From contig JAHLEZ010000023.1 in assembly GCA_020726505.1 (NCBI GenBank), positions 783,720-847,719 of the forward strand: 64,000 bases of DNA. Direction: 5' to 3'. Below are positions 14,679 to 55,881 of this stretch, piece after piece. Below the pieces are notes generated by a model. That model ran no database searches and was not told the origin of the DNA. It saw only the letters and a program-made list of their open reading frames with translations. A program made the translations under genes and the position numbers. How positions within the stretch are numbered: the stretch's first letter is position 1; the number at the start of each line of letters is the position of its first letter. This DNA comes from Leptodontidium sp. MPI-SDFR-AT-0119. Taxonomy: Eukaryota; Ascomycota; Leotiomycetes; Helotiales; Leptodontidiaceae.

Positions 14679-15504
14679 ATGGCTCGTGTTTCGTCCCGCT
14701 GAAAGGCTATTAAAGTTGCCCGCGCCGTTAACGCCGCCGTTACTCGTGTAATAAGAAGTATAAGTTTCTCTTATACTCTTTATTCTTTTTGAGAATAGTT
14801 TTAATATATTATAATAACTTGCGGCTCGCCCCTATACCCCCTCGCCCGCCCCCGCCCCCGCCTTAGCCACCCCTCACTGTCGCGCTGAGGTAAGTACTAA
14901 TAAGGAGGTTCCTTGCTTAATATACGTAAAAGCTGCCTTAAAGGGTACTCTCCCTGTTAATATTTACTAAAGCGTAATTAGCTTAGTATAATACTTACAG
15001 TGCCACAGTTAAAATTATAGTTATGCCGGTCCTGTTAAGCCTAGTGTTACGGTCGCCTTTGCGGCCTTTATAAAAGAGAAGCGCGGTTTTAACCGCACTC
15101 GTATAAGTTTCACTTTTGGCTCTTATACTTTTGAAGCTAACTAACTTTAAATAGTAGTTAAGACGTCTTTAGGCTTCGGTCTAAGAAGTAATTACTGTCC
15201 TTAATATATTCACTTTACCTTTATAAAACATACTTTAAGTATATTAACAAGCTCAGCCGCCGCCCTAGCTACCGCTTTAGCTATTATACTACTTAGTATA
15301 TTCACTTTGTCTTTATAAACAGGCTTTAAACGTTCTAACTTTAGCTTAGCCGCCGCCGCCGCTACCCCAGCCCTAGCCACCCCTCGCCTAATTCTCCCAC
15401 TTATACGTAGTATTAGTACTAGTGTTATCGCTAGTGATGTGGCTGCCCGCCGCCGCCGTATTAAGGAGTTATTAATAGAGCTAATAGACTTATTAGTAGT
15501 TTAA
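14679..15504 (+). pseudogene. Antisense accessory gene of Copia-A1 (decayed copy)
   Basis: This gene lies between the copia pol end and the 3' LTR on the strand opposite to pol. The first exon opens with ATG (14679) and encodes MARVSSR, a stop, then KAIKVARAVNAAVTR, followed by GTAATA as splice donor (14748). The middle exon parallels 18764-19060 of Copia-A2 and keeps the Cys and SYAGP signature, but has several RIP stops. The acceptor that reads TAG in A2 reads TAA here. The C-terminal exon ends with an Arg-rich RRRRIKELLIELIDLLVV at 15504. It is homologous to the genes at 18578-19424 and 42068-42980. The function is unknown. Confidence 0.72.
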
Positions 15505-15699
15505 TTCGTGACTTAATAGCGGCTTAAGAACGTGGCCCTTTAAAGTATAATTTACGACTTTATAAGTAACTTAAGAACGGGCCCTTATGTACTTGTTTTT
15601 GCGTTAATTTAGTTATAGTTTAGGTTTATTTAGTTTAGTTTAGGTTAGTTTAATTGTGGCTTCAGCCGGAATAGAATTCCTATCCTTTAATAACTTAAA

Positions 15700-18149
15700 A
15701 AGATTATATTTAAAGTAATTATACTACCTTAAAAATTACAAAGGAAAACAAAAGAGTGTATTTTGCCGTAAAGTATAAGCTTTAATTAAGCTCTTTTACT
15801 AACGCCTTAACATCTTGTAAGTTAAGTAATACTAAGAAAGTCTTAAACTTCTAGCGTGGAAGGTTTTTAGTAAAGCTATTAGCGTACATCTCACTACTAG
15901 GTAAATACGTAACCTTAAAACTGCCTTTTTAGTACTCTTAACGTAATTATATATTCTAAATATTAACGTGCTTGAGCTTAGTCGATATACGTTAGTTTTC
16001 TTTAATTATAAGCCTAATCGTTTATTAATTGTCGTAAAAGATATTTTAAGGGCACCTTATATTAAGGTACATTTCTTTAAAGAGCCTTTACAGTGCTATA
16101 ACCTCCTTTATAGTTCGCTCTACTCTTAAGAGCTTAGCTTTTATAGTCGAGGTAATAACTATGTCTTACTTAAATACTTTTTATAATATAATACCCCTAA
16201 ATAAAAGAATAATAAGCCTTTATAAAGAACGCTTAGTTTTTAAATTATTTACGAAAGAGGCATTAAATATTATTATAAGTTGCATTTCGCGTTATTAATA
16301 ATTATAAACGATCCCTAAGAAGCGTGTATTAAATAAGTAACGTATTATTTAATTAATAGCTTATAAGTGCTTTTAACTTAAGTTCGTTAAGAATTGCGAT
16401 AGTTGTGAAGCTATAAAAGCTACGTCCGGTCTAATTATAATAGTTATATATAAGACGGATCCGACCTTTTCTTAGTACTCTTTGATTTGTGCCTTCGTCG
16501 CTTTACTTGTGTTTTTAACTAAGTCGTAGTATAGTAGAGGGGTACTTAGGTAGTTGCTATTTATTAAGCTGAATTTCCGGGCTACCTTTTTTATATACGT
16601 GTCGTAAACTAACGTGACTATTCTCGTATATTTGTCTTGTATAATTTATACCCCTAAAAATTACTCTACGTCACTTATTATAACTAACTCGTAGGCTTTA
16701 TTAAGGCTATTAGTGATTTTGGCCGCTATAGTGAAGTTTAATTTATAATATAACACTTATATGTCGTTTACGTAAAAGGCTATAAATACTGTGTGCTTAT
16801 TATTTATAAATATATAAGGCTCTTTTATAAGTGGCTCTAGACTAAGGCTTTTAAGTATAACTGAGAAGTCGTTATATTATAAGGCTAAGGAGTCGCGTAG
16901 GCTATATAGGGCTCTGTCGATTTTTACAACTATGCTAGGCTACTTGAAACTGTTAAGAAGGTAATAATAGACAAGTGTACTTCGTTTGTCTCGTTTTATA
17001 TTAATAAAAGCGTTTACGACGTCGTACTACTTAACTTCTAAGTTAAATTAGGCTACTAGGGCTATCGTAACACGAAAAGACCTCGCCGCTAATATAAAAG
17101 CGTATATAGAAAATATAGTAGTATCCTCTTATAAGTTACTCTTAGTAACGATACGCGATTTAGTACGTATAAGTTGTTTAGTTAAGTTAACTTTATAAGT
17201 AAACACTTATTTTAATAATATAGGCGTCGTTTTAGCGTCTACTTTAAGTATAATATACTAGTATTTCTTAGCCTAGAAGTTCTTTATCTCCTTACGTGCG
17301 TCCTCTTAGAAGTGTTCTCTTTACGGGTGTTAGTTTAAGTTTTATTAATACTTTAATATTATTAAAAGCTTTACTTAATATAGTTATATTGTTTTACAGC
17401 TTATAGTTTCTTGTGTTTTAATTGTTTCGCCACTGACTATAATTATAAAGACAATATATATAGTTTTATAGTCTTTATTATTTTCTCGTGTTACGTCTTT
17501 ATTCTAAAACGTCGTAATAAAAGATATAATTTACGTATAATTCTTATCTTTTTAGTTTATAAACTTAACGCTTAAGAGCTCCCTTGTCGTAAAGGAGTAT
17601 ACTCCCGGCTTAATCTTTAATCGTCTATTTAATTATATTGTCTCTCTAACTCGCCTTCTCCGCTGAGCTCGAGTGATAAAGTATAATTAACTTTAGTTAA
17701 GTGCTTATAATACTTCGTCTAAGATCTCTTAAGACATAGTTTCTTTTAATAGGGGTTATATTATTGTCTCTAATAGTGTGTTTTCTAAGAGTAATTATTA
17801 TTCTTCCTTTAGCTCGTCGTCGTAATCCTCCTTAGACGAAGTGTTTTCGTGTTATAATACACTTCTTAGACTTATATTAGTTACTTTAAGTTAGTTTAGT
17901 AATTAACTCTAATTATCTTGTGCTTTACTTTAAATTATAACTTAAAGTATTAATTTGCGCGTACCTTTAATTTAGCGTAGTTATTTCGCACTTAAAGTAT
18001 TCCTCTTAGGCTCGATATATTCGTTTCGTTATGTTTAGCTTTGAGTCTGTCTTAGTGTGCTTAGGCTTTTTGTTATTATTAAAACTATTATGTCGTCTTT
18101 ATTAAGCTATATATCGTCTTTTAACGTGTTAATTTGTGAATTTAATAGT
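15700..18149 (-). pseudogene. Copia-A1 RNase H and reverse transcriptase relic
   Basis: The minus-strand translation parallels Copia-A2 19.6-22.0 kb. The YVDDI box reads YVNDI at 16774-16760, so the first catalytic Asp is already Asn (G-to-A). TAA/TAG codons are frequent. The frame is cut at 18149 by Copia-A2 and resumes at 25656. Confidence 0.88.
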
Positions 18150-18345
18150 TGTCGTGCAAGAGCACGCCTAGAGGCTCCACAGAGGCGAAATTGACGTATT
18201 ATTGAGGTATGCGCAGTCCTGTAATTGATTGTTCTATCTCTACGTATGGTCTATTTAAGCTCCCTGAATATGGAGGTCGCGGGCGCTTTAGCCATATTGC
18301 CTTTGATTAGGCTCGCTTAGCCGGCTTACTATAACCTACACGACA
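18150..18345 (-). repeat. Copia-A2 3' LTR
   Basis: 196 bp, TGTCGTGCAAG to CCTACACGACA, followed by the CACCCCC complement of the polypurine tract. Confidence 0.95.
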
Positions 18346-18577
18346 CACCCCCTTACCAAGGACAATACTAAGCTTTGGCGAAGTAAACAAGTGCTTAATA
18401 AATATAATAAATAATAGGAAATCGATATATAATATATAACTAATAATATAAAAGCGATAAATAGTAAGGGAAAATAATAAGTAGTAGCTAAAGTAAATAT
18501 ATTAAACGTCTAAACGAGAGTATATAGACAACTACTCCCTTATTGTAACTTCCTTTTATAAGTATACTAAATTTAAA

Positions 18578-19424
18578 ATAAGTCGTGTCTTTACTATTAA
18601 GTTAACCGCCCGCGCCTTTCGGCGCTTTAACCTCGCCGTTACTCGTGTAATAAAGAAGATACGTTTCCCTCGTATTTTATTAATTTGAGATTAGTTTTAA
18701 CGTTATTTAAGTTAAAAAGTTAAGAAGTTAAGTGAGTTAAAGTATACTAACTAGCTATAATAGTCTGCCGCCGCTTCTCGCCGCCGTACCCCCTCTCTTG
18801 CGCCCCCTCCTGCCGCCCCTGCCACCCCCTCTCGTCGCCGCGCTGAGGCAGGTACTAATAAGGAGGTCCCTTGCTTAGTATACGTTAAAGTTACCTTAAA
18901 AGGTGACTTCCCTGTCAGTATTTGTCAAGATGCCGCTAGCTCGGCTCGGTGCCTTCGGTGTTATAGTTAAAATCATAGTTACGCCGGTCCTATTAGGCCT
19001 ACTATTGCGGTGGCTTTTGTTACCTTTTTGGAGGAGAAGCGTAGTACTTCGCGTACCCGCGTAAGTTTAACTTTAGTTCTTATGTTTTTAAGTTTAATTA
19101 ACTCTAAGTAATAGTTAAAATCCCTTTAGGCCACGGTCTGTGAGGCTCTTACTACTCCTAGTATATTTATTCTGTCTTTATAATAGCTTTAAAGAGACTG
19201 ACTTTAGTTGTCTAGCCGCTGCCGCTCCCGCCCCCGCCGCTGCCCCTGCCCCCGCCCCCCGCCTAATCCTCCTACCTGTTCGGGTTAGTGCTGGTGTTAG
19301 TGCTGGTGCTGTTAGTGCTGGTGCTGGTGCTGCTGCTACTGCTGATGGTGCTAGTGGTGTGGCCGCCCGCCGCCGCCGTATTAAGGAGTTACTAGTAGAG
19401 CTAGTAGACTTATTAGTAGTTTAG
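18578..19424 (+). pseudogene. Antisense accessory gene of Copia-A2 (best preserved copy)
   Basis: Exon 1 is 18578-18646 (ATG decayed to ATA; 23 codons, basic). Intron 1 is 18647-18763, with donor GTAATA, branch-like ACTAAC and acceptor TAG. Exon 2 is 18764-19060, exactly 99 codons. It starts with a Pro/Ala/Arg-rich stretch, continues with VPCLVYVKVTLKGDFPVSIC, then ARCLRCYS, one stop (18968-18970) and NHSYAGPIRP. A textbook donor GTAAGT follows at 19061. The C-terminal exon runs to 19424: an Ala/Pro-rich part, then RRRRIKELLVELVDLLVV. Exact limits of the introns in 19061-19208 are uncertain. The Cys/His spacing suggests metal binding (inference). The gene runs opposite to pol, so its introns cannot be spliced from the retroelement's own RNA. 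Confidence 0.75.
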
Positions 19425-19549
19425 TTCGCGACTTAATAGCGGCTTAAGAACGTGCCCCTTTAGAGTTATAGTTTACTACCTTATAAGTAGCTTAAAAACA
19501 GGCCCTTATATACTTACTTTACGTTAGTTTAGTTGTGGCTTCGGCCGGA

Positions 19550-22500
19550 ATAGAATTCCTGCCCTCTAATAACTTAAAAAGAACGTGCTTAACGTGACTA
19601 TATTACCTTAAAAAATATAAAGGAAAATAAAAGAGTGTGTTTTATAATAAAGTGCAAGCTTTAATTAAGCTCTTTTATTAACGCCTTAGTATCTTATAAG
19701 TTAAGTAATATAACAAAAGTCTTAAACTTTTAACGTGGGAGGTTTTTAGTAAGGCTATTAGCGTATATCTCACTTGTGGGCAAGTATATAACTTTAAAAC
19801 TGCCTTTTTAGTACTCTTAATATAGTTATATATTTTAAATATTAACGTGCCTAAGCTTAGTCAATATGCGCTAGTTCTCTCTAACTATAAGCCTAATTGT
19901 CTATTAGTTATTATAAAAGATGTTCTAGGGGCACTTTATATTAAGGTGTATTTCTCTAAAGAGCCTCTATAGTACTATAACCTCCTTTATAGTTCGCTTT
20001 ACCCTTAAGAGCTTAGCTTTTATAATCGAGGTAGTGACTGTGTCTTACTTAAATACTTTTTAAAGTATAGCACCCTTAAACAAAAGAATAATAAGCCCTT
20101 ATAAAGAACGCTTAGTTTCCAAATTATTTATAAAAGAGGTATTAGACGCTATTATAAGCTACGTTTTACGCTATTAACAGCTATAAACGATCCCTAAGAA
20201 GCGTGTACTAAACAAGTAACGTATTATCTAATTAATAGCCTATAAGTGCTTCTAGCTTAAGTTCGTTAAGAATTGCGACAGTTATAAAACTATAAAAGCT
20301 ACGTCCGGTCTAATTATGACAGCCGTGTACAAGACGGATCCGACCTTTTCTTAGTATTCCTTGATTTGTGCCTTCGTCGCTTTGCCGGTGTTTTTGACTA
20401 GGTCGTAGTACGGCAGAGGGGTGCTCGGGCAGTTGCCATTTATTAAGCTAAATTTCTGGGCTACTTTCTTTATATACGTGTCGTGGATTAACGTGACAGT
20501 TTTCACATATCTGTCCCGTATAATTCGTACCCCTAGAAACCACTCTACGTCTCTTATTACAGTTAGCTTGTAAGCTTTATTAAGGCTATTAGTGATTTTA
20601 GCCGCTGTAGCGAGGTTTAACTTGTGGTATAATACTTATATGTCGTCTACGTAAAAGGCCACAAATACTGTGCGCTTGTTATTTATAAATATACAGGGCT
20701 CTTTTATAAGTGGCTCTAAATTAAGGCTTTTAAGTATAGCTGAGAAGTCGCTATACTATAGGGCTGGGGAATCGCGTAGGCTATATAGGGCTCTATTAAT
20801 CTCTATAATTATACCGGGCTACTTAAAACTATTAAGAAGGTAATAATAAACGGGTGTACTTCGTTTGTCTCGTTTTATATTAATAAAAGCGTTCACGACG
20901 TCGTATTACTTAACTTCTAAGTCAAATTAGGTTGCTAGGGCCATTGTAACACGAAAAGACCTCGCCGCTAGTGTGGAGGCGTACGTGGAGAATATAGTGG
21001 CATCTTCTTATAGGTTACCCTTAGTAATAATACGCGATTTAGTGCGTATAAGCTGTCTAGCTGAGTTAACTTTGTAAGTAAACACTTATTTCAGTAGTAT
21101 AGGCGTCGTTTTAGCGTCTGCCTTAGGCATAATATACTAGTATTTTCTAGCCTAGAGGTTCTTTATCTCTTTATATGCGTCCTCTCGGAAGCGTTCTCCT
21201 TACGAGTGCTAGTTTAAGTTTTACTAATACTTTAGTACTATCGGAAGCTTTGCCTAATATAGTTGTGTTATTTTAGAGCTTATAGTTTCCTGTGCTTTAA
21301 TTGTTTCGCCGCTAATTATAGTTACAAAGACAATATATATAGTTCTATAGTCTTTATTATCTTCTCGCGTTATATCTTTATTCTAAAACGTCGTAATAAA
21401 GGATATAATTTGCGTATAATTCTTGTCTTTTTAGTCCATAGACTCGGCGCTTAGGAGTTCCCTTATTATAAAGGAGTATACTCCCGGCCTAATCTTTAAC
21501 CGTCTATTTAATTATATTATCTCTCTAGCTCGCCTTTTCCGCTAAGCTCGAGTGACAAGGTGCAGTTGACTTTAGTTAAGTGCTTATAATACTTTGTCTA
21601 AGGTCTCTTAAGACATAGTTTCTTTTAATAAGGGTTGTGTTATTGTCTTTAACGGTGTGTTTTCTAAGAGTAGTTATTATTCTTCCTCTAACTCGTCGTC
21701 GTAATCCTCCTTAGACAAGGTGTTTTCGTGCTGCAGTGCACTTCCTGGGCCTGCACTAGTTGCTTTAGTTTAGCGCAGTAGTTAACTCTGGCTGTCTTAT
21801 ACTCTATTTTAAATTATAACTTAAGGTATTAATTTACGCGCACCTTTAATTTGGCGTAATTGTTTCGCACTTAGAGTACCCCTCTTAGGCTCGATATGTT
21901 CGTTTCGTTGTGTTTAGCTTTGAGTCTGTCTTGGTGTGCTTAGGCTTTTTATTATTATTAAAACTACTATGTTGTCCTTGTTAAGCTATATGTCGTCTTC
22001 TAACGTGTTAATTTGTGAATCTAACGGTATTATCTCATTTTAGTGCTCTCGTGGAACAGGTAGTCCCGCCTTAGTAATTGCGTGTAAGACTACTTCCGTA
22101 GAAACTTCGTCGACTTTTATTAAGTTAAATAATAGCTTATTTAATTTAATACTGTTTTTCGCCTTTATATATTTGTCCCTTACGTGTTCGATGGCTAACT
22201 CGGCGTCTTAAGCGGCCTTAGGCTCTATAAGTATATTAACGACTTATTTAAGTATTAGTAGTAGTTAGCTAACTATTACTTACTTACTATAAAACTGTGC
22301 CTTATTAAAAATAACGTTTCGGGTACGTATTACACGCTTTAGTAGGGGTATTTAGATCCTATATATATTAGTTATATAGTAATTAATTAAGTAACCGACG
22401 TGCCCCCTTAGGTTAACCTTAAAGCCTCTCTTGTCACGGAGAGCTTGTCGGTCTTTAATTATCGCGTAGGCTTTGGCGCTATATATAAAAGTATTACTCT

Positions 22501-25330
22501 AGTTAGGTCTTAAATTAACTAATAACCTCTTTATTATATGTGGATTATACTACTAAAAATACTGCCTAAACCATACTTCTAGGACTTCGTTTGGCGACCG
22601 CATAGCTCTCTTAGCTAATGGCGACATATTATATAAGTATATAGCCGTTAAAACAGCCTCTGGCTATAACTTAAATAGTAGATTAGCGCCTGTTATTATT
22701 TTTAAGGCCTTAGTAATTAGCTCCCCACTAGCTCTTTCTACACCTCTATTTGGCTTATACGTGTAAACAGGAGTAGGCTCTAGGTCGATGCTATTATTTA
22801 ACGCCTATTAGTCGTACTAAGTCTAGTATCTTGTGTTAATTACAGACGTGTCGTTATCGGACCTGACTTTATATATAGCTAGATTGTATTAGTGTCTAGT
22901 CTATACCTTAAATACTTTAAGCACTCTTATAATTAACTCGTTGGCTTTGCTCGTGAGTGTAAATGTGAAAAGCTTTCTACTGTATTCGTCCTTAATTAAT
23001 AATAGCTAGTATATGTTATTATAGCCTATAGGGTAGTTAAACAGGTCCTATGCGACTCTAAAGAAAGGTCTCGGGGACTTATTGTCTGACTCTCTACGCG
23101 ATAGTCGTTAATTTAAGTGTGTCGCAGTATAACTTTTGTATTATATATTAGCGATTCTATTAATTTAGACATTGCGGGTATACTTTATAAGAGCTTCTAG
23201 GGCCATTTTGCCGAAGTGACCAGCCCGTAAGTGCCACATTTGTATTATATCGCTACGGGGCCGTAAGAACCGGCGGGTTAACTAAAAGGTATACTTCTTA
23301 AGAGGGTACAGTCGTTTACTAATCGTCAAGTATATCATTATAGTAGGAGATTTACGTGTCTTTATGAATATATATAATTATAAAGAGCGCGAGTAGTTAT
23401 TAACAAGCTTATATTTAAATACTATAAGGTTCTACTTACATTATAAGGTTCTCACTATATAACTCTCTTTAGCACTACTTACGCGTAAAGTCGTGTCAAT
23501 ACTATTATACCACACCCCCGACTGTACAAGGAGGCTCTCTAAGATAATATTAATATTAAACCCCTCTATAATAGCCACATTAAATAGCGTCAAGTCCTTA
23601 GTATATAGTCTAGCAGGTCCATATATAGCGTTTTTAAAGATGCGTGTACTTCTTCTAATAATTAGTAAGTTTGAGGTGCCTGTGTTAACTGATTCTCTTG
23701 TAATGCGTTTAAAGTTATTAAGGACTAGTTTATTAATACTATTAACTAAGTGAGTTACGCCGTAGTTATTAATAAGAGTGTTATTTAATAGAGGGTAACG
23801 TTAGAATTCTATAGTATTATATATACTAGCGTTAAGAGTGTCGTCTTAGATTATATTATTAAGGAGGTTTAAGTTAAGTATAGCTACGTTAATACTTCTT
23901 GTCCCTTCTCACGTAGCTTTGCCTTTGTCTTTGTTTCTTATAAGTGTAGCGGCATCGGCTGTTTTAGCGTTAGTAGTAGGTTTAGAGGTGCTAGTGTTGT
24001 TAGCTCTAGTAATTTTAGTTACTATAACGTACTTTTAACCTTCTTTAGTTATAGCGGCCTTAAGCTCCCTAAAGTCTATAGTCTCTAACTTCTTGCGGGT
24101 TATAGTTATTTCGTTAGCGTTTAGTATATACTTTATGCCTTTAGTAGTCGTTTTATTAATTATATAACGTAATCTCTAGCACTTAAGCGGCTTAAAGAAG
24201 TGCTTATTATTTATACTATATAAGCATAAGTTACCTTAGCCGCGAGAGCGAGATTTGCTAGAGCTTACGCCCGACGCACTATCGTCTATTCCTTTAAGGG
24301 TTAAGTATTAACTACTACCCCCTCCTTAACGCTTAAGCTTCCTAAACATAGTATGCTCTTAGTCTATGCCTAGGAACACTTATATATAGTCGTTAAGAGT
24401 AAAACTATACTCCTTTCTAAGTTAGTTATCGCGTATAACTATACTAAGGATAAGATTTACTTAATTAAGGTACATGTGAGCTCCTATAACACGTAACTAC
24501 TTCTTTAGAGCCACAGTACCTTTGACTTCAGGTATATTATACGCTTTAGCATTCCTATAAGCCTTTAAGAAGTCCTTTATTTATTAATTAACGTTGACTT
24601 TTCCCTTATATACTTCCTTTAAAACCTTATTATATTCCGTGACTACCGTTATAAGGACCGACGATTCTAATAATATTATGTCACGCTGAAGTGTGTTAAT
24701 TAACGTTTATAAGCTTAAGTCGCTCTTGCCGGTTAGTTCCCTAATTGTAGAGTCTAAAAGTGAATCGTCTACTGTTTTAGAGAGCCAGTTATATAAAGTT
24801 ATATACTTGTTGTTTTGGCTCGTTTATTTAGTAAACGTGTATTAGTACTCCCTGGCTTATACTACGTAAATCTGCTGCACCTTTATAATTATCGGGTATA
24901 GAGGTGGACTAGCTTCTTCTAGACTTATCCCTCTTATTAAGGCATTTGTCGATATAGCTAGGGCAGGTGTAGCCTACGCGTTGTCGGAGGACTTAGGCGT
25001 TAAAGACGGTTGTGGGTTTGCTGCTTTCTAAGCTGTAATATTAACGTAATACTGGCTTAATTGAGTCTTTGTAACCTCTTGCGTAGTACTTTTAAGTATT
25101 AAAGCCTTAGGTTAGTGGTTTAGGATATAGCCTGTCGTAAGAGCGCTAGGGTCTATTATATTTAGTGCACTTATAAAGTTAGTATAAAATGTCAAGCGTA
25201 AGTGTTATGTCGCTTAATCCTTCCGCGCCTTTAAATTGTAGTCCGTAAGTAGCCTTGAAAGTGACATTATTAGTTTTGGGTATATATATAATGATTTCGA
25301 GGAGGTTTTAGTGATTTAAGGGTTATTAAC
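19550..25330 (-). pseudogene. Copia-A2 gag-pol relic
   Basis: Copia order on the minus strand: gag with a knuckle (NLCLYSINNKHFFKPLKC near 24240-24175), protease near 23.78-23.5 kb (NNYGVTHLVN in place of D-x-G-A-THLVN), the GAG-pre-integrase segment MWHLRAGHFGKMALEAL near 23245-23190, integrase, then RT. The YVDDI box is at 20653-20639 (intact) and is followed by VLYHKLNLATAAKI. RNase H lies toward 19.6 kb. TAA and TAG codons, mostly at former CAA/CAG/TGG positions, interrupt all domains. Confidence 0.9.
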
Positions 25331-25454
25331 AGGCTTTTAAGTATTACTAAAACGTGTATAAGGCAGCGGTGAGAAAGCCTTTATATGCCTCTGTAGAGCC
25401 ACGTCGGCGCGTGTATGCGACTAGGAAGCTTTAATAGCTTACGGGGCTTATAAC

Positions 25455-25650
25455 TGTCGTGTAAGAGTACGCTTAGAGGCTCTATAGAGGCGAAATTGAC
25501 GTATTATTGAGGTATACGTAGTCCTGTAATTGATTGTTCTATCTCTACGTATGGTCTATTCAAGCTCCCTGAATATGGAGGTCGCGGGCGCTTTAGCCAT
25601 ATTGCCTTTGATTGGGCTCGCTTAGCCGGCCTACTATAACCTGCACGACA
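25455..25650 (-). repeat. Copia-A2 5' LTR
   Basis: 196 bp. It differs from the other LTR by about a dozen transitions and no indels. ACGGGGCTTATAAC at 25441-25454 is the candidate primer-binding site. Confidence 0.95.
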
Positions 25651-25655
25651 ATAGT

Positions 25656-28210: not shown

Positions 28211-28212
28211 TA

Positions 28213-28514
28213 TATTACGGCTGGCCAAAGGTTGATACGGCGAGTTGACTTAAGCTTTGTATTTAGGCCTAAGGCTACGCTCAAAATCGAGAAAAAAAGA
28301 CAAGGAAGAAAAGAAAGCTCTCTGTAAGGGGGAGCTCGAGTATAAATATATAAAGGACCCTCCTAATAGGGCCTAGCGTAGTCGAGTGCCATTCACGTTA
28401 ATACGTCACAGGCTCGCCACTTAATCTTCTTTATCAGGCTTAACACCGTTGTATAGCCAGCGATACTACGAGCTAGTGTCAGTTAAAATATAAGGCGTAT
28501 CGTAGGTCGTAACA
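28213..28514 (-). repeat. G2 3' LTR
   Basis: 302 bp, TATTACGGCTGG (decayed TGTTACGG) to GGTCGTAACA. Confidence 0.92.
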
Positions 28515-28559
28515 TTACCCCCCCCCTCCTAAAAAACTATATCTACGTAGTTATAGTTA

Positions 28560-31500: not shown

Positions 31501-34202
31501 AGAAAGTCGCCGGACTATTAATAAGGCTAAAGGGAAGGACTTTATACTTATACGTGCCGTATTAAGTATAAAAGGTCGTATAGTTTTCGCTCTTAAGGGA
31601 CATACGGATGCGGTAAAAAGCTTACTAAATATTAAGCTTTATAAAGACTTTCGCCTTATAAATACGCGCTATTATTTTATCAATTAGAGGGATTAAGTAT
31701 AAGTCCTTCTTTAATAGGGCATTTAGCTTTTAGTAGTCGACATATAGCCGGAGACTACCGTTAGCTTTCTTAGCGAAGAGAATAAAGGCCGTATATAATA
31801 CGCTAGAGGGCTTAATAAAACCTTTATATAAGTTGTCGATAATATACCGCTTAGTCTCTAATAGTTATTTTTTAGTCATACGCTAGAGAGGTTTAAAGGA
31901 CAAGTCGTTTTCCTTAATAAGCTTAATCTAGTAGTCTACGCCTTAGTAATACGCTAGTAACTCGTCGGAGGCTCGCCGGGAGAAGAGAGGAGTATACTCT
32001 TAATACTTTATAAAGAGCTTCTTGCCGACTAACTCGTCGTCTTGCGCGTACTTAGCCTCTAAGGCCTCTTTTAGAGATAAGTCTCTATTTATTAATATAA
32101 GCTTAACACTTAATTAGTCTAAGGCCTCTCGCCGGCGACAAGTTAACTCTTAATTAATCTTATATATTGACGCCACGAAGGTCTCCACTTTACTCTTCTT
32201 AACTCTCTTAAGTCGGAGGTACGTAATAGATATTACTACTGCTAATATAAGGGAGATCTTTATAGTAAGCGCCCTTAGCTAATAATTCGCTAAGGAAGCT
32301 TTATAGGCTCTTTTGTCTTTAAGTAATAATCCCGGATCACGGGATATTAAGGGGTTTAATTAATCCTTTATAACTTATAAGTACTCTTTAACCTCCCTAG
32401 TAAAGCTTAAGGGTCGGGTCGGCGAGCCGCTAGTTATAAGTTATATAGAGACCTTTGACTTAAGGGAATCGTCGAGTGCCGCAATCTTGGCTTGCCTCCG
32501 GCGGTAATTATCCGTATTTATAAGGGCATCCCTTTGTTTTATATTGAGTTAATAAGACTTAACGATTAACTTATTAGAATAGTTAATATTAATAAAGACT
32601 TACTAGTTAAAATACGGCTAAATAAGTATATTTAATAGCTATTTTAGTCAATTACGGTTCTTTATATACGACTACTTTAAGTCGTAATACTCAAGGAACT
32701 TCCGACTAATTAGGACGTCAGTGTTTCCTAAGTCAGTTACTAAAAAAGGGAAGTTAATTCGCCGGCGGTTAATTGTTAAAGTAAATAAGACGGCCGTGTC
32801 GATTAGCTTGCTTTTCCTACTATTATAACTAATTAAGACGATTAACTGAGGGAGGGATATAAAGGAAATATTAAGTTGCTTAATAAGTTAGTATATAAAA
32901 GAGGTTTTAATAACACTGAAAATATTAACTCTACTATTAATATATACAAGTGTCTTAATAAAGAATTTATTCCTTCTTAATTTAATACTAATTAAGAATT
33001 ATTGTCTTCTAATAAAAGCACGGAAATTAAATATTAAGTCCTTTTATAAGTTATAACTTATATTAAGGTGTAAGTCTTTATTACGGCCTAAGAGTTTTTT
33101 AATAACTCGTTAGTCTTTAAATCCTCGCTAATAATTAACTAGGAAATCGACTTGTCGAGAGCTTAGTCTCTACGGCGCTTAAGGCAGTCGCTAACCTAAT
33201 AGCTAGTCTTATTATAATAAAGATAAGTGTTAGAAGAGACGTCTTTAAGTATAAGAGGAAGTACAGGGGACTTAGGTCGGCGTAAGACGGGCGAAGGAGA
33301 GGGCGTACGCTGGCGGACATCTAATAACTGTCTTAGAGTCAGTGGTCTCTAGGCGTAAGTAATAAGAGTAAGTGAAGTCGAACGCCCGCTGTCCTACTTT
33401 AAGATGCCGCGCGAGTCGCTAGTACTAATATTATTAAAGGAGACTCGAGGGGCTTCGCGGATAATAATAGTAATACGTTTATTAACTCGTCCGGCAGCGA
33501 TATTCCGTAACTCGCGATCTAAGACGGCTAAGAACTCGTTAAGAGCCGTATAATCTCTAGTGAATTTATACTTTTTAGTTTAAATATTATACTTAAACTT
33601 ATTCGAGACTTTCTTATATACGTCGTCGAACTAGCGGTTTAATAAGATTTTTTTAATAACCGTATATATTATAAACTTTATATAAAACTTATTATACGTT
33701 ATATTACTTATTTATAGTTAATTATACTTAAGCTTAACTACTTACACTTAGTTATAATTAAAGAAACGCTAATTTAAAGCCTTTAAGACGTCGGCGGCTT
33801 TATTAAAGTCTTTAGCGAAGTCGGGGTTTATTTATTAAAGGATAATAGTCTTGGCCTCTCCCTTTATATACTCGAAGTAGGCATAGACCTGTGATTCGTT
33901 AGTAAAGAAGTTACTTAAGTACTTTTAAATAAAGAGTTTTATATTTATTTTTTAAGCGTTATATTTAATTTCGCCCTTATAGTCGCTAAAAGGAGTATAA
34001 GGGTACTTAACCTTATTAGGCTTAACGGCAGGGATAATAAAATTTAGCTTAAGGAGGTAGTAGTCGGCGGTAGGCTAGAGGTCCGCCGTAAAAGCACGGG
34101 TTAACCGGTCGTAAGGAGGAAAAGGAGTACGAGTCTCTTAACGCGGGTTATTAGTAATATATTAAGTAAGGGCCTATGTGACGGCAGCGGCGATAATAAA
34201 GC
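28560..34202 (-). pseudogene. G2 gag-pol relic with chromodomain
   Basis: Minus strand, C- to N-terminus with rising coordinate: chromodomain (about 28.6-28.85 kb), integrase (to about 30.3 kb), RNase H, and RT (about 31.0-32.0 kb). The YIDDILIYS box reads YINNILIH near 31460-31425, so both catalytic Asp are Asn. Then come protease and gag. A CCHC knuckle relic (YLYYNKTSY...SDCLKRR) is near 33250-33170, and gag continues to 34202, then from 43439 beyond Copia-C. A plus-strand frame at 31424-31687 is only the mirror of the RT. Confidence 0.9.
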
Positions 34203-34387
34203 TGTCGTGCAGGCACGGGCTGATGCTCGGTTAGCTGTGCGCTACGGTAAATATGGTTTCTGCCATGTTATACCGCTTTCAAGAGAACAACGTGTTCCCC
34301 TGATTTCCTTATATATTCTAGACAATAATTAATTACTTTAATTCTCCCTACGTTAATCGCAAGGCTCTACTTTACTTTTGTACCACA
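34203..34387 (+). repeat. Copia-C 5' LTR
   Basis: 185 bp. It differs from the 3' LTR by transitions only, with more of the ancestral C and G kept in this copy. Confidence 0.95.
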
Positions 34388-37300
34388 GTTATAAGCCCCG
34401 TGACGAAGCTATTAAGTTAGTATTCTTTCTTTTATACTCTACAGATTTAAATAGAGCTATTAACGTAAGATTAGTAAGTGACAAACAACGTCGGCGTTTT
34501 TTACCTATTAACAAGTATAGTTTATACCGCCATTTTCCCTTTAACCTCCCTAGAAAAGGGTAAATCGAGCACTTATACTTAATATTCTCTTCTCTTCTTT
34601 AAAAAATCTATCGAACCCTCGAGAGAGCAACCCTCTCCTTGCTATAATAAACTCAACTTTAGTCTCCTCTTCTAATAATCGAACGCCGCTTAATTACGAC
34701 AGGCAAACTTAGACCTTATAGTATTAAGCCTTTAAATCCTTTTATATCTTTTATAAGGTATAAACTTCAATTAATTTAAAGCTACTAGTCGCTCTAAATA
34801 TCCTTAAAAACGAGCCTTAAGCACAAACGATCGACTAAGTAAAGGCACAATAAGACAAGGAGGCTCTCGATTTTAACTTTAAGGAGCAAGTAAAGTAAGA
34901 TAAAAATCAACGAGCACCCAAACTCAAAGGACCTAAACTAAATATAACACCTCTTATACTATTTAACGTTACTATAGTTGCTCTAATATATACTGCCCTA
35001 ATAAGGGAGTATACTATAAAACACGCACAATAGTCAGAAAAGGCTCGGGCCTATAAAGTAATATACAAGTGGATTTAAGAGACGGTTAATCCTTCGATTT
35101 ACCAGAGTGCTGTTCGAGAGTATAAGATTAAGGAGGAATAAAGAGTAAAAGAGTAACCCGATAAGATAACGGACGAATTAAACGACCCACGATCTTAAAC
35201 TTTATAAATGCTCCTTAAGGTATTAAAGAAAGACTACGCTCTTTTAGAAACAAGTAATATTACTAAAGCTCAAGCCAAATACAAAGAGAAGCTCGAAATC
35301 GTCAAAACAAGACGAGTTAATCCTAAGGTGTAAATTTAAGAGTAACAATTAGCCTACTAATATACTCTATTATACGACATTCCGGACGTTAAAGGCCCCT
35401 TAGCAATTATCAACTTTATCAAGGCAGTGCAAGAGAAGCTCGCACCTAAATAAGCTCGCGAACGACTGTCTAAGGTCTTTAGAGATAATATTCTTAAAGT
35501 TATTCACAAGTGCACGTTACTTTAATACGTTAACTAATTATCGGCGCTTAACGAAGAGTCTCTTACGGCTACTAAGAGGAACAAGACAATTAGATTATAC
35601 ACTACACTTAAAGAGAAATCAAATGCTCTAAGAGTACTACTAGTACTAAGGACCCCTTTGCCAAATACCTCGCTTAATACCTGCCCTTATAAGGTGAGCT
35701 CTCACCGACACAAAGCGATCGAGTATTATAGACTTCGATATTACTACGACGGCTTAACTGGGGACAAACTACGTAACCTACCGTTTACAGAGGAAATTAA
35801 GAAAACCCGAATTAAGCTTAAAAAGGAGTTTCTTAACCTTAAACAAGTAATCGGCAAGAAAGGGTAAAGATAAGTAGTAATAAAGGAAATTGCCAAGGAA
35901 ATAACCTCTGAAAATTCCTCGTCTTCCCTAATAACCTTAATAAAGGCCTTAAAGTTACCGAGGTACCCCGGTAGTGTTAATACTTGTGTAATTAGTCCGG
36001 AGTTACTCGACGAGGCTCTTGCTACCTCTAAAATCTATGTTACTATTAATATAAATCGACACCCGCTCTTAGAGAACACCTTACTCGATAACGGCGCTAC
36101 TACTCATTTAGTTAACTTAGTTACTCTGTTAAAGCCTAGGACCTTTATTAAATTAACTAACGACGACTATATTAAAGCCGGAACGTCGAGCCTTATAATT
36201 AAGGGCCGAGGTACTCGTGTCTTTAAGAGTGCTCTTTATAGCCCTAATAGACTAAACACTGAGGACTTAAGGCTTTTTAACGTCGCTGTCGTTAAAGGAT
36301 TTAATATTAATATTATTTTAGAAGCTCGTTTATTAAAGGCTAGACTTTAGTATAATAGGTTAGACTGTACGTTACGCGTGGGATTAGCTGAAAAGAGTAT
36401 TATATTAAAGCAATTAAAGCGACAGTTTAACTTAGCTTTCTTTAAATACAAGCCTTTTAATTACTCTTCGGCCTCCTTAACTACTCACAACTCTCTAATT
36501 CGCCCAACTTATACCTTTTTAATATTCCCCACGCTTTAAAAGAGTATCCGGCAAGGCTTTTAATTAAGTCGACGATATTTAAAACCGCGGTTAAATAACG
36601 CTAGGTTATAACACTTACGGGTAGGGCACCTAAGGAAGGAAGCGTTAAAGAATTTAGTCAAAAATGCGCGCAACGTCGAGATCTTAGGCACTACTCAAAT
36701 TAAGTATAAAAAGTACTCTCTAACTATCGCGCAACAAGTTATTAGTCGAAGACCTTCGGAGAGAACAGCTACCCGGCCTTTTTATCGCATTTCTTAGGAC
36801 TTATTCGACTTCCTTATTAAATTTAATAAGAACAATTAGCTCTTGTTAGTTAAAGACTAATATAATAGGAAATTCTATAAATAGCTCTTAAAAAACAAAG
36901 GGTTAATTGCCGTTTTAAGAGCTCTTAAACCGTTTAAGGCGTGGACGAGACGTTAATTCGGACTCTTGATTTATAAAATACGCTAAGACAACGATACCTT
37001 AGTTATAGGAATTAATAGATTAACCGAGTATGAAAAGTAATATATAGAGAATAGTATTAATATTAAGGGTACCCCTTTGTATATATACTAACTTAATAGG
37101 GGAGCTAAGCGTGTAGGTAAGGAAATCATCGAAAAGTCTATTAAGATACGCCTTTTAGTAAACCTACTAAAAGAACTTTAGACAGAAGTAGCTATGGCGG
37201 CAATTACTCTTTATAATATAAGTCCGGCTACTTAGAAAGGCTTTAAGAGTCTAAATAAGATCTTTTATGCCTAGTTTAGGCAATATTTTTAGTACTACGA

Positions 37301-38185
37301 CCCTAAGCTTATTTAAAAGCTCACAACCGATATACGACCTAACTAAAGTAATATATAGGCATACGGCTATAGAGCCTACCTTATAATGAAGGACCGAGAG
37401 GCTCTTTAATAAAAGAAAGCATTTAAAGTCAACCTAAGAGCGCACCTTAAATACCTAGTAAGATACGTCTCGTCTAATATATACAGGGTCTGAGTACCTT
37501 AATTACAGCGTGTAATAGTGACTCGGAACGTTACTTTTAACGAATCCCTCTTTTATTCGGGCTCTCTAAACGTAAAGAGAGCGGTCGGCCAGCCGCGCTT
37601 AATATTAAGAGATCTTACTAAAATACTAAAAGAAGAGGAGGGACCCTAGGACGCTAGAACCGATATAATTAATCGACTGAGCGCACTTAATATACTAGAA
37701 TTAATAATAAGTACTACTTTAGAAAAGGAACAACTAAGCCAAGTAATAAGTTCTATAAAGACTATTAAGTTTATAACCTTGGGGGTACTATAGCCTTCGA
37801 TTAAGCTTTTAACTACGGGGGTAAAGTAATTAATACTACCCTTAAAAAAGTCAGGATTAATAGAACTCGTTAGTAAAAACTCGGGGGTAAAACAACTAAA
37901 GAAAAGTACTAGACTTCTTACTTATAAGCACCTTAATTAGGTCTTAAAACGAGTCGACAAATCAAGACAGTTAGTGTCTTAGAGCACAACTAAGAGAAAT
38001 GTCTTATGTAGCGCACCAAACTTTAAGAGAAATATAAGAGCTAAGCGCTAATTAATATTATAAGTTATTATATACTCTTAAGGGCTATACGACCAAGAGC
38101 GCGGTCTTAAGCGTCGGGGAGCACCTACTTAAGGTGCCGGCCCTAAGTAATCGGAAGCTCCGCCTTAAATAATAAAGTATAAGGA
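34388..38185 (+). pseudogene. Copia-C gag, protease and integrase relic
   Basis: Gag occupies about 34.4-35.9 kb without a clear knuckle. Protease is at about 36.05-36.35 kb: LLDNGATTHLVN, with DNGA in place of the usual D-S/N-G-A box. The GAG-pre-integrase segment (HLRKEALKNLVKNA) is near 36.62-36.66 kb and the integrase core runs to about 37.5 kb. In-frame TAA/TAG codons break it up. The frames at 34378-34563 and 35658-35867 are open fragments of this polyprotein or chance frames, not genes. Confidence 0.85.
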
Positions 38186-38190
38186 ACATC

Positions 38191-38335
38191 TGTCGGGAGA
38201 CTAGGCTCAGGTAAAGTGGTACAGCTCAAAATGATCATAAAAATGCCTCTTGAATTGTACGAAGGGAGGGAAGGTTGGCCAGGCCAACCGACCTCCCTTA
38301 TATGCTCGGTAAGCGAGCACGTGATTGTTCCGACA
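38191..38335. repeat. TRIM3 left LTR
   Basis: 145 bp. It contains the palindromic GGTTGGCCAGGCCAACC (38273-38289). It is identical to the right LTR. Confidence 0.97.
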
Positions 38336-38540
38336 CTGGCAATCTTTCTCTTGTCATTAGATTATACGGAACAATCAATCCACCAGCTTAGCCCTTCTTT
38401 ACGGCTTCGTACGAATAAATCAAGGAAAAAAACAAGCCCGCATATGCCTTCCTCAAGTGAAGCGTCCTCTTCCCAAGTATAGCCTTTATCCTAAGTAAAG
38501 CGTTCTTCCCTCAGATATGAAACGAGCCCGAGTTATCGAG

Positions 38541-38608
38541 ACAGTAAAGGTGTCAGCTCCGCGACAGTAAAGGTGTCAGCTCCGCGACAGTAAAGGTGTC
38601 AGCTCCGT
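38541..38608. repeat. 23-bp tandem repeat in TRIM3
   Basis: Three consecutive copies of a unit containing GACAGTAAAGGTGTCAGCTC; related degenerate AAGGTGCCAGCTC units follow to about 38755 and again at 39245-39310. Confidence 0.9.
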
Positions 38609-38847
38609 ACGACACTTGGCCAAGTGTCGCAGTTGTTTCAGCAGTAAGGTGCTAGCTTTATGCGATCGGGAGGGAGTATTATCGCAATTGTCGTGGCAGA
38701 AAGGTGCCAGCTCGTACGACTTAGAAGAAGTCGTAATTGTCGTGGTAGTAAGGTACCAGCTCCGTAAGCTGGTCGTACGAAGGGTGACGGCTTCGTACGA
38801 GAAGAAGGAGAAGTCGAGTACTCAGCGAAGAGCTCGAGAGAGGAGGA

Positions 38848-39222
38848 GGGTTGTTTGTATCGTACGAGGGGTGGCGTCTCGTACGGAGGGTGCAGAGCTC
38901 AGCGAAGAGCTCGCAAAGGGAGGAGTGTTGTTTTGTATTGTACGAGGGGTGGCGTCTCGTACGGAGGGTGCAGAGCTCAGCGAAGAGCTCGCAAAGGGAG
39001 GAGTGTTGTTTTGTATTGTACGAGGGGTGGCGTCTCGTACGGAGGGTGCAGAGCTCAGCGAAGAGCTCGCAAAGGGAGGAGTGTTGTTTTGTATTGTACG
39101 AGGGGTGGCGTCTCGTACGGAGGGTGCAGAGCTCAGCGAAGAGCTCGCAAAGGGAGGAGTGTTGTTTGTATCGTACGAGGGGTGGCGTCTCGTACGGAGG
39201 GTGCAGAGCTCGTACGACTTAA
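38848..39222. repeat. 78-bp tandem repeat array in TRIM3
   Basis: Nearly five units of 78 bp. Each has TCGTACGAGGGGTGGCGTC, TCGTACGGAGGGTGCAGAGC and GCGAAGAGCTCGC. The three middle copies appear identical. Because 78 is a multiple of three, all three plus-strand frames stay open, giving overlapping frames 38616-39272, 38851-39222 and 38855-39331. These are best read as a by-product of the array, not as genes. Confidence 0.93.
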
Positions 39223-39652
39223 AAGAAGTCGTAATTGTCGTGGTAGTAAGGTACCAGCTCCGTACGACGTAGAGGAAGTCGCAATTGTCGTAGTAGTAAG
39301 GTACCAGCTTATTCGTCCAAAGATTTCCTAGTCCGTATGACTTCTTCGCGAAGAAGGAGATCTCGATAAAAGACGTGATGGACGTAGGTTCAGGAGCCGT
39401 ACTCTCGATACAGCGGTTCGACTAGTGAGTCTGTACTTCCCCAAAACCCTCGAATATCCTAAGGTATACTTCGCACGAGGCCGATTTCTCCACGAAGGAT
39501 AAGCGCCAGACTCATACGAATTATCTCCTAAAATACCCCTTAGCATAAGTTCGTACGAAGCCGATTTCTCCACGAAGGATAAGCGCCAGATTCGTACGAC
39601 CTATCTCTTCTAGATACCTAGTTAATGTATAGCCATATTGACTATTCATGAA

Positions 39653-39797
39653 TGTCGGGAGACTAGGCTCAGGTAAAGTGGTACAGCTCAAAATGATCAT
39701 AAAAATGCCTCTTGAATTGTACGAAGGGAGGGAAGGTTGGCCAGGCCAACCGACCTCCCTTATATGCTCGGTAAGCGAGCACGTGATTGTTCCGACA
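39653..39797. repeat. TRIM3 right LTR
   Basis: 145 bp, identical to the left LTR; followed by the TSD ACATC at 39798-39802. Confidence 0.97.
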
Positions 39798-39802
39798 ACA
39801 TC

Positions 39803-41900
39803 TTAATTCGTTAGATTTAAAAGAAGAATCAAGTATAAAGTAACACTTACTACTTCCGGCCCTAACTAATAACAACCTACTTAAACCTTTACAAAAGAAG
39901 AAGGTAAAAGATTAAGCAACTAGCGACGGTCGAAAGACTTGAGTTAGTAACAAGATAACGAAACCGAATCGAAGCGTTTACACAGCAACTATTAGAGAGT
40001 TAATTACGGAATCGTTAAACCCGTCGAGCAACCGTGAATATTTAAAGGACTTTCTAGAGACCTTTTGGCCTAGTCAAGAACTAGTATAAAGAGACGGGAA
40101 AGACTTAAGCGCAGTCTACGTTATTATCTTAGCGTTTATTCTTAAAAATGTCAAAATTCGATAACTAGTTAATCTCCCACGAATACACTAATCCCAATTA
40201 CCAAAGGACCTATTAAATTAAAAAGACCTCAAGGATTACCCTTTAAGAGAGCACTTCTAAGCCGACGCAATCAAGGAAATCACTAACTTAAAGTCGCGCA
40301 ACTACTAGAGAGTCGTCAAATAAAGCTTCGCCACTAAACAACTAATACTATTAAAATAAGTATTTCACGCTAAGGTCGATTCTTCAGGGTATTTAACTAA
40401 GTGTCGCTCGCGAGTTATTATTAAAAGGGATTTACAACCTAAAACGTCAATTCTCTTAACATACGCGGCCACCTTAGCTACTCGTTCTTTCAAGACAGCC
40501 ATAGTAATAGCAGCTCAATTTAATTTAAAGATAATCCAATTTAATATTGTTAACGCCTTTATTAACGCCAAACGAAGCGAATTGAGTGCTCGCGTACGCT
40601 GCTACTTACTAAACGGATTTAAGCAAGACGATATGGTAGTAAAGGTTGATCGTGCACTCTATAGACTTAGAGATTCGCTAGCACTATAATATAAAGACTT
40701 TACTAGAACTCTATTAAAGCTAAAGTTAATCCCTTATAAGGAAGAGCCTTGTATCTTTATAAACGAGTAACGTTCGGTCTTTGTCATCTTTTATATTAAT
40801 AATATTCAAGTGTTATACCACGCTTTAGCCCTTAAAGACGCTTAACCTATTATTAACGGCTTAAATACGACATACGAGCTTACTAGAGGAGAACTAATAG
40901 AGTGGTTTTTAAGTGTTCGCGTTATTAGAGATTGTTAAGTAAAGACTATTTCTTTAGTACATAACACTTATATTTAAAAAGTTACTTTACGATTTAACTT
41001 AATAAATAAAAATTGCCTAAGTACTTTACTACTTTAAGTTAAGCTACTAAAGAATTAAGGGCAAGTAACCCCGGTTTAAATTAAGAAGTATTAAGAGAAA
41101 GTTAACTTAGTACTTTATATAACAATTATATTACGCGCAAACGTTACGTTTATAGCTTTAAGACTTTTTCACTTCTTGACTAACCTCTCTTTAGAGCACC
41201 TTGCGGCAGTCAATTAGACTATTCGTTACCTTTTCGGAACCTGATTTTTAGCAATTATCTATAGTTATAAGCTACGCGACTCTTAGCTTATTATAGCTTT
41301 AAATACTTTATTTATAGACGATCTCAATACTAGGCGATCTTCTAATAGTTATATTATAATACTTTTTAGAAGTTTAATCTTGTAAAGAGCGGCCTTACAA
41401 GATACAGTTACTACTTCGACTATACAGGCTAAGCTTTTAAGCGTTAAGCGCACGGCTAAGGAGATTATGGCTTTGTAGCGTTTCTTTCGAGAGCTATGTT
41501 TTAAGTTAGGAGAAATTTAAAAGATCTTTTATAATAATTAATAAATAATATAGTTAATCGTTAAGGAAAATTAGCGTATCTCTACTAAGTTACGCCACGT
41601 TAATATTTAAAATATATAATTGCGCCAGGAGTTTTAAAAGGGCACTTTTTTAGTCAAATATTTACTTACGGGTTATATGCTCGCTAATAAACTTATAAAA
41701 AACCTCTCTCGACAGAAATTTAAGAATTTTATTACTTTTATTAACTTAGTAGATATTCGTGCTTAATTAAAGTAACTCACTATAGAGCCCTCGCTTTAAA
41801 GCAAGTCTTTATACACGTTTTTTACTTTTCTTTTATTATAAGGGTATTTTCTTATATATTTGTTATTCCTTTATAAATTCTCTTACTATTTTATTTACTT
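39803..41900 (+). pseudogene. Copia-C reverse transcriptase and RNase H relic
   Basis: This continues the polyprotein after TRIM3. The RT shows NAKRSELSARVRC..LNGFKQ, KVDRALYRLRDS, YKDFTRTLLKL and FYINNIQVLY (40789-40815), where the YVDDI catalytic pair has become Asn-Asn. RNase H follows to about 41.75 kb. Stops are scattered, so no product is expected. Confidence 0.88.
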
Positions 41901-42067
41901 AGAGAGTAATTAAGCTTAAGGGTAAAATTCACGGCATTTAGAAGATTTAATTGCTCTTAATAGTTGTTTAATTCCACGGCAAAAAAGTAACGTAAGAAAG
42001 TAGTTATAAGGGGACACTTAGTTATTTAGAGGTTCTTAAGCCTCACCGAATACAAAAAACGAGCAAC

Positions 42068-42980
42068 TTATATAATTAAAAGGCCTAAAACCTCCCGAAC
42101 TAAGTCACTTAACGCACTAGTAATTACCTTAATAAGCTCCTTAACTCGAGCAGCTTGAGCCTCCTGCTCTAGTGTGAGAGTAACTCTAGGAGGCTTATTA
42201 ATTACTATAGCCCAAAAAGTAGCAAAACCAGGAGTAACACTAACGACGAACGCACTAACTTTACTAGTAGCTATAGTAAGAGTAGTAGTAATAGGAGAAG
42301 CTAGAGTTACTCCCCGAGGAGTCTCCTTACTACCCTCTGACTCTGAAGAGGTCTTAACGTAGAGAGCAGCCGTGGCTGTACCTAAAGCACGACTAATAGA
42401 ACTAGTTACTTTACTAGTAGCTCTACTAGTAACAACTTGACCTTTAAGGGCCGCAAAAACAGGAGCTCTTAAGCGCTCTAATTCCTAAAAAGTCAGTAAT
42501 TATACGTTAAAAAAAAACAACTAAGGAATTTACCTTCTTACCTGCGTTATTTAAGAGCGCAACACGGTATACTAAGAAAGGAGCCTAGGCAGTAACGGGA
42601 GCAACTTTATAAGAGTGGCCCGAGGCGCACGCAAAGTAACGAGCACCCCGACTAACTATATCAAAGCACTCTCTAGTACTCTTAGTTTAGAGGGCGCTAT
42701 TAATACAGCCCAAATAAATAACCAAACGCTCAGCTCCCTTAATACGAGGAGCGCAAGCACGAGCCGGAGCCCGAGTAACCGCAGTAGCTCTCTTTAGAAC
42801 AGGAGCAGCCTTTGGAGCCTTCTTAGCCTCCTTCTTCTTTTTCGCCTACTATAATTAGCAATGTTTAAATTAATACATAGCTTTAAGATCGACGATTAAC
42901 TTAACTTAATTCAAATAACTTACAACGGCGGACAGACGATTAGCCTTAACGGTAATAGCAGATCGCCGTGAGACACCTAT
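42068..42980 (-). pseudogene. Antisense accessory gene of Copia-C
   Basis: Three exons on the strand opposite to pol. Exon 1: 42980-42924, 19 codons, start ATG decayed to ATA, then GVSRRSAITVKANRLSAV. Intron 1: 42923-42846, GTAAGT donor, TGCTAAT branch, TAG. Exon 2: 42845-42534, 104 codons: a KKKKEAKKAPKAAP basic stretch, RLVIYLGC, ECFDIVSRGARYFACASG, HSYKVAPV. Intron 2: 42533-42485, GTAAAT donor, TACTGAC branch, TTTTTAG. Exon 3: 42484-42068, 139 codons, ending with QAARVKELIK and a helical tail. Phases match, giving about 261 residues with only two or so internal stops. The frames on the plus strand at 42174-42362 and 42615-42797 mirror it. Homologous to 18578-19424. Unknown function. Confidence 0.75.
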
Positions 42981-55735: not shown

Positions 55736-55881
55736 TACTTCCTTCCAGGTTGCGATGCATCTCGCCTAAATCCTTGCTCTGAACTTCGACGCAGATGCAG
55801 AGGTCAAGAGACTTGCTCAATTGAGTAAGTAGGTAACACAGGATTCAGCAGATACCAAGGATTCCAGACCAATACGAAGTA

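Follow-up and report, generated by a model that had tools for sequence, protein, structure and literature searches.

Previous studies have described long terminal repeat (LTR) retrotransposons with a gene that runs antisense to their own coding sequence. In fungi, Boty-like LTR retrotransposons of Botrytis cinerea are reported to hold an additional antisense gene, brtn (PMC8365987, PMC4227169, PMC5987419, PMC7264820), in an element described as having gag, reverse transcriptase, integrase and a chromodomain and as being of Ty3/gypsy type (PMC4227169). In plants, antisense open reading frames (aORFs) are described from maize Grande (gene23), Silene Retand (ORF4, or TRP28), rice RIRE2 and PvRetro13 (PMC7264820, PMC11963269); an own promoter and a nuclear protein are reported for gene23 (PMC7264820), and DNA binding has been suggested for TRP28 (PMC7264820, PMC11963269). 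HBZ of human T-cell leukaemia virus type 1 (HTLV-1) is named among antisense genes (PMC11963269), and the Ty1 p22 restriction factor is described as a product by which a copia element controls its own copy number (PMC4599808). Here we consider a gene lying antisense to pol in copia elements of the fungus Leptodontidium sp. MPI-SDFR-AT-0119, found in a stretch of 64,000 nucleotides (contig JAHLEZ010000023.1, positions 783,720 to 847,719; “the window,” whose numbering is used below) and followed by a search for copies over 77 Mb of the genome (69 contigs). The sequence evidence argues strongly that this is a selected, spliced, protein-coding gene. As a whole, we read it as an accessory copia gene, antisense to gag-pol and spliced, that encodes a small basic Cys/His protein and may act as a regulator in trans, and we give this full reading a probability of roughly 0.45.

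Most copies of the gene are damaged by repeat-induced point mutation (RIP), but two natural copies in the same genome as the window, L056 and L057, are free of it (TA/AT 1.07). Their 835-bp gene is identical, introns included, and their left flanks differ. It consists of exons of 81, 297, 46 and 197 nt separated by introns of 105, 54 and 55 nt, which begin with GTACGT, GTAAGT and GTATGT, all end in AG and contain stops if read through; in this A2-type copy, all three introns have CTRAC 17–18 nt from their end (expected 0.014 per 24 random nt). The 206-aa product (for L056, isoelectric point 11.5 and 20.4 kDa) begins with a basic exon 1, followed by the block CxxC-x13-C-x8-CxxC-x4-HxC, a linker rich in Ala and Pro, and a C-terminal part rich in Arg. 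Across the A and C types the block reads CxxC-x12/13-C-x8/9-CxxC-x3/4-HxC, and the Arg-rich C-terminus is also hydrophobic. Among 20000 first-order Markov sequences, 64 reached 206 open codons, a figure in which the splice signals are not counted. In L093, an A1-type copy without RIP, exon 1 runs for 27 codons up to a GTAAGT donor, and after a 57-nt intron exon 2 stays free of stops for 95 codons. The first donor therefore differs between types (GTACGT in the A2-type L056, GTAAGT in L093), each after 27 codons and in phase 0, and splice sites and phase are kept though intron 1 measures 57 nt in L093 and 105 nt in L057. In L057 the gene runs to 2314 and pol, from the other side, to the end of its stop at 2551; the two are convergent without overlap (237 nt from stop to stop).

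Two other candidates were set aside: a sense-strand gene at the same place, because the unspliced pol-strand frames contain stops, and a stand-alone, possibly domesticated copy (L068), whose last exon does not keep the frame and whose right flank matches other repeats. Separately, the identity of L056 and L057 through the gene and adjacent pol is interrupted by a short stretch at the end of pol (about 2590–2700 in locus coordinates); there L056 resembles the A1 type, which points to template switching or conversion.

In the window, three elements carry the gene between RNase H and the 3' LTR, with pol on the opposite strand. All three are bounded by TG...CA LTRs with a 5-bp target-site duplication (TSD):

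14241–45831: copia A1 element, LTR pair, 5-bp TSD TAATC
14241–14443, minus strand: 3' LTR of A1 (partner 5' LTR 45629–45831, TSD TAATC)
18150–25650: copia A2 element, LTR pair, TSD ATAGT, nested in A1
18150–18345, minus strand: 3' LTR of A2 (partner 5' LTR 25455–25650, TSD ATAGT)
34203–43433: copia C element, LTR pair, 5-bp TSD AAAGC
43249–43433, plus strand: 3' LTR of C (partner 5' LTR 34203–34387, TSD AAAGC)
14679–15504, plus strand: A1 antisense gene, RIPed and broken; exons 14679–14759, 14818–15102, 15158–15203, 15257–15295, 15350–15504
18578–19424, plus strand: A2 antisense gene, RIPed and broken; exons 18578–18658, 18764–19060, 19115–19160, 19216–19424
42068–42980, minus strand: C antisense gene, RIPed and broken; exons 42980–42924, 42845–42534, 42484–42068
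14883–15002, plus strand: Cys/His block of A1 in exon 2, approximate extent, by eye
14618–14624, plus strand: TATATAA before the A1 antisense gene, putative promoter motif
18521–18527, plus strand: TATATAG 57 nt before the A2 antisense gene, putative promoter motif
43058–43065, minus strand: TATATAAA before the C antisense gene, putative promoter motif

All three gene models keep their frame. The A1 model (606 nt, 6 internal stops) was aligned to the un-RIPed L093 and the low-RIP L004 and L007, with exons 4–5 positioned by eye from the alignment and the frame checked afterwards; the A2 model (633 nt, 2 internal stops) was mapped onto the intact four-exon gene of L056/L057; and the C model (786 nt, 2 internal stops) has exons of 19+104+138 codons plus a stop. 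The start codon is missing from the A2 and C copies, and mutations have altered the first donor of A1 and of A2 as well as the first acceptor of A1. RIP is heavy: 0.68 of CpA sites show C-to-T and 0.62 of TpG sites G-to-A, against no more than 0.20 in other contexts (27 A2-type copies compared with the un-RIPed L057). Mutation of this type and the style of the introns suggest a filamentous fungus. A pol fragment of L057 matches Pfam PF07727 RVT_2 (E 7e-23), which makes the reverse transcriptase copia-type. The preliminary description, drawn from the window's letters, had proposed these three genes at these places, and the un-RIPed copies, the LTR and TSD bounds and the opposite strand of pol bear it out, as does the C frame, which is kept from exon to exon. 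Its GTAATA was mistaken as an exon 1 donor of A1 or A2, where the un-RIPed copies use GTACGT (L056) and GTAAGT (L093). Its branch-like motifs hold for the A2 type, with CTRAC in all three introns; A1 intron 1 has no CTRAC (L093), and the C introns, as read in L078, have only CTAAT and CTGAT.

If the antisense frame encodes a functional protein, an intact frame, conserved introns and a dN/dS (ratio of nonsynonymous to synonymous rates) below 1 are expected, as had been anticipated, and the natural un-RIPed copies agree on each count: they are open (L056/L057 throughout, L093 in exons 1–2), and between L093 and L057 dN/dS is 0.169 over the 95 codons of exon 2 and 0.195 over the 68 codons of the Cys block (bootstrap 0.066–0.445), with none of up to 2000 replicates at or above 1 and all six Cys and the His kept. 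This comparison indicates that purifying selection has acted on exon 2. Defining a fixed stop as one in at least 95% of copies, the antisense frame has no fixed-stop codon site in A2 or in C, compared with 0–5 (A2) and 3–12 (C) in the other five frames; the 91 stops in 28 A2 copies fall at 7 sites and the 160 stops in 30 C copies at 13, and other copies are open at each. Indels in multiples of three prevail in exons over sequence outside them, both in A2 (32/40 versus 2/17, p 2e-6) and in C (7/7 versus 3/14, p 0.001). Transversions in C favor third codon positions over first and second, whether common to at least two of the 30 copies (16/261 versus 16/522, p 0.035) or confined to a single copy (19/261 versus 15/522, p 0.005); elsewhere in C they number 3/127 in introns, 14/151 in the leader and 5/175 in the spacer. 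Between families, chance-corrected purine/pyrimidine agreement is higher at positions 1 and 2 than at position 3 in six of six pairs of A1, A2, C and D, and mixed in the four pairs with the poorly aligned E. The C counts leave out L069, L070 and L072 (repeats of L020, L034 and L019) and L037 (close to L034), and the C indel count also L071 and L027; L056 was left out of the A2 counts because its gene is that of L057, and L068 was kept in the A2 stop and indel counts and left out of the within-A2 codon test and the RIP spectrum. L079, a stretch from the wrong side of pol, was not used.

A number of observations weigh against a coding gene, or against the role proposed for it. Exon 1 has a dN/dS of 1.016 (L093 versus L057), and within A2 there is no third-position excess of transversions (1/206 versus 7/412), in a test with few shared changes (8/618 exon columns); pol in the same alignment does show the excess (p 0.008). 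One other A2 frame, on the minus strand of the spliced exons, is also without a fixed stop, triplet repeats in A2 exons 2 and 4 may by themselves inflate the indels of three, and the C introns (3/127) are no more variable than codon positions 1 and 2 (16/522). Searches against known domain families, which had been suggested from the outset, gave no known domain in Pfam and nothing of note in the PDB, only weak matches below cut-off in each. Finally, antisense transcription and splicing in the cell are predictions from sequence.

The gene is widespread. Within this genome, 57 places match A-type exon 2, 113 match C-type exon 2 and 54 match the E-type exon, some of them pieces of one copy. Among the 150 of 394 candidates for the A-type RNase H query that were scored, 115 have the antisense gene within 2.5 kb: A or C queries match downstream of 106, always antisense, and the E query adds 9 antisense and 1 same-strand match, leaving 34 without. 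Conversely, 49 of the 57 A-query matches pair with a scored copia RNase H match. At least four copia families carry the gene at the same place and in the same orientation, namely A, C, E and D (L073–L075, found by the A query, with copia reverse transcriptase and RNase H on the opposite strand), which extends the two families first reported, A and C. A gene captured in a single copy, the alternative named at that stage, is at odds with its presence in most copies of several families. Eight of the 34 RNase H matches without the gene are stop-free, with 45–46% identity and frames of 966–1504 aa, and constitute a young un-RIPed copia family (e.g., G000:C19:391822-392286). In the one copy inspected (L077), no such gene was found in the 3' stretch by eye or with four hidden Markov models, and this family is, on that copy, a natural control without the antisense gene. 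No relatives appeared in the viral contigs searched.

How the families are related is harder to read. In 13 E copies, five of the seven ligand positions read Cys or Tyr and two His or Tyr, with Cys or His present in 1 to 8 copies each, a pattern that fits RIP of Cys and His codons; the third ligand in E appears to be His. Comparing profiles, with 20 shuffles for each pair (the weak E match L092 left out of the E set), gave probabilities of 91% for A–D and 86% for C–E, and supports, at the level of sequence profiles, kinship of A with D and of C with E. A–E scored 23.0 against a shuffled maximum of 15.8 and A–C 17.9 against 17.4, and C–D and D–E fell inside the shuffled range. The link from A/D to C/E draws on the A–E score, ligand spacing, position, orientation and a phase-0 first intron after a short basic exon (seen in A1, A2 and C, and by eye in D). 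A single common ancestor for the gene of all four families is likely.

By their pol, A1 and A2 are one family, whose gene alleles have a different history. We compared the A1-type L007 with the A2-type L057 by transversions, which RIP does not make. Pol differs at 3/850 sites (stretches of 2/400 and 1/450), compared with 8/234 in the spacer, 7/232 in the leader, 17/81 in exon 1, 20/285 in exon 2 (p 5e-10 against pol) and 32/191 in exon 4, which is repetitive and of uncertain alignment. Mosaics also occur: in L005, L006 and L008 a gene of A1 type adjoins a spacer of A2 type, and in L067 an A2-type exon 1 and exon 4 flank a mixed exon 2. The alleles of the gene appear far older than the pol carrying them, and such old, divergent alleles on nearly identical pol, together with the mosaics, indicate that the gene moves as a cassette between elements, we infer by template switching in reverse transcription. 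In L065, in addition, the antisense gene is A2-like except for a different exon 1 and is joined to a strongly diverged pol-side flank (45/400 and 123/376 transversions versus L057).

What the protein does is a matter of fit. A nuclear trans-acting regulator fits best, given a very basic, selected product with a Cys/His block that is absent from the one other copia family examined, and a nuclear regulatory role seems to us a tentative choice at somewhat below even odds. Expression would start from an internal antisense promoter near the 3' LTR, suggested by the TATATA motifs and reported likewise for Grande gene23; TATATA is present in 29/29 aligned A2-type copies, though its A/T bases are not RIP targets and the leader mean is itself 0.92. 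The protein would enter the nucleus via its basic segments, the basic arm and the Cys/His block, presumably metal-binding, would bind nucleic acid, the C-terminal stretch may pair the protein with itself, and, acting in trans, it would control how its own element group is expressed or how many copies the group has, much as HBZ does for HTLV-1. Because no domain match guides them, we infer all of these functional steps. It is doubtful, if conceivable, that they form a modular identity system of one copia clade, in which a spliced antisense zinc-cluster regulator, exchanged as an allelic cassette among elements that are otherwise nearly identical, lets element groups recognize and control self versus related copies. 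A very basic protein kept with its element could instead be a life-cycle cofactor that accompanies the pre-integration complex and helps with import into the nucleus or with the choice of target, not with the regulation of expression, and such a role is discussed for plant antisense ORFs (PMC7264820). The young un-RIPed family without the gene (one copy, L077) points to copia movement being generally independent of it, and a separate antisense unit suggests separate expression, which makes the cofactor unlikely.

Host pressure on a protein that counters silencing, heterochromatin or RIP could drive divergent alleles, as the old alleles on near-identical pol and the rapidly changing exon 1 might suggest; since most copies are heavily RIPed anyway and selection on exon 2 is purifying and not diversifying, we hold counter-defence to be decidedly unlikely. 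The convergence of gene and pol, 237 nt apart, would also suit an antisense RNA acting as double-stranded RNA or by interference with gag-pol, with the open frame incidental, and regulation by antisense RNAs of retroelements is a topic of PMC7264820. An RNA product would leave the exon 2 dN/dS of 0.17, the lack of fixed stops, the indels in threes and the ligand spacing conserved across families without a cause, and is very improbable. Least credible of all is a single capture of a host gene, or a frame left open by chance through RIP and Ala/Pro-rich composition: low-complexity codons do make open frames common, and the reverse complement of the L056 spliced exons is itself open in one frame, but splice signals, selection, recurrence in four families and the 49/57 pairing with copia RNase H argue otherwise.

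The window holds further features. Inside copia C lies a young-looking, 1.6-kb non-autonomous LTR-like element (38191–39797) with identical 145-bp terminal direct repeats (TGTCGGGA...TTCCGACA), a 5-bp duplication ACATC and internal 78-bp tandem repeats. Adjoining the 5' LTRs of C, A2 and A1 (34388–34399, 25443–25454 and 45617–45628) is GTTATAAGCCCC in element sense, which we guess to be a primer-binding site, altered by RIP, for a half tRNA. Another repeat family is represented by 2293–6086 and 29625–33428, inverted and ~80% alike. A G+C-rich gene island (48000–62000) includes a LysM and glycosyl hydrolase 18 frame (52164–55109, minus strand), a WSC and chitin-binding frame (58132–59895, plus strand) and a 2EXR frame (49400–50176, minus strand).

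Against the systems described at the outset, brtn is alike in being the antisense gene of a fungal LTR retrotransposon, and is set apart by the published description of Boty as other than copia. The source cited for brtn is reportedly Zhao et al. 2011, Virology 417:248. The plant aORFs share the position between pol and the 3' LTR, the antisense orientation and, as described, the presence in most copies, but belong to plant elements (Retand of gypsy type) and not to fungal copia; our protein has no Pfam match to TRP28, and its gene has several introns where none is mentioned in the part of PMC11963269 considered here. Ty1 p22 resembles it in the copy-number control proposed here, but is described as a sense-strand product made from Gag and not an antisense gene. 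HBZ lies antisense toward the 3' end of HTLV-1, also an LTR element, and is spliced; its product is a nuclear regulatory protein of the basic leucine zipper (bZIP) type. The likeness lies in antisense position near the 3' end, splicing and nuclear regulation (here proposed), with no sequence relation claimed, and HBZ, bZIP and retroviral, is unlike our protein. The Zn(II)2Cys6 cluster (CX2CX6CX5-12CX2CX6-8C) has the same two CxxC halves and, as in the A type, six Cys; we rejected membership because the first spacer here is 12–13 and not 6 and Pfam gave no match at E up to 1, and a His precedes the last Cys.

The preliminary description knew of no fungal copia family with such a gene, and we found none in the open-licence papers searched, which is weak evidence of absence as most subscription journals lie outside that scope; the novelty narrows in that a fungal antisense LTR gene, brtn, is published. 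Clear selection, several introns, a metal-ligand pattern, four families, a family without the gene and divergent intact alleles on near-identical pol make the role of antisense accessory genes directly testable, and the gene illustrates how a retroelement can retain introns if these are carried by the strand other than that of the genomic RNA. Compared with known antisense accessory genes, what is new here is the combination of a fungal host, a copia element, multiple introns and a zinc-ligand-like motif.

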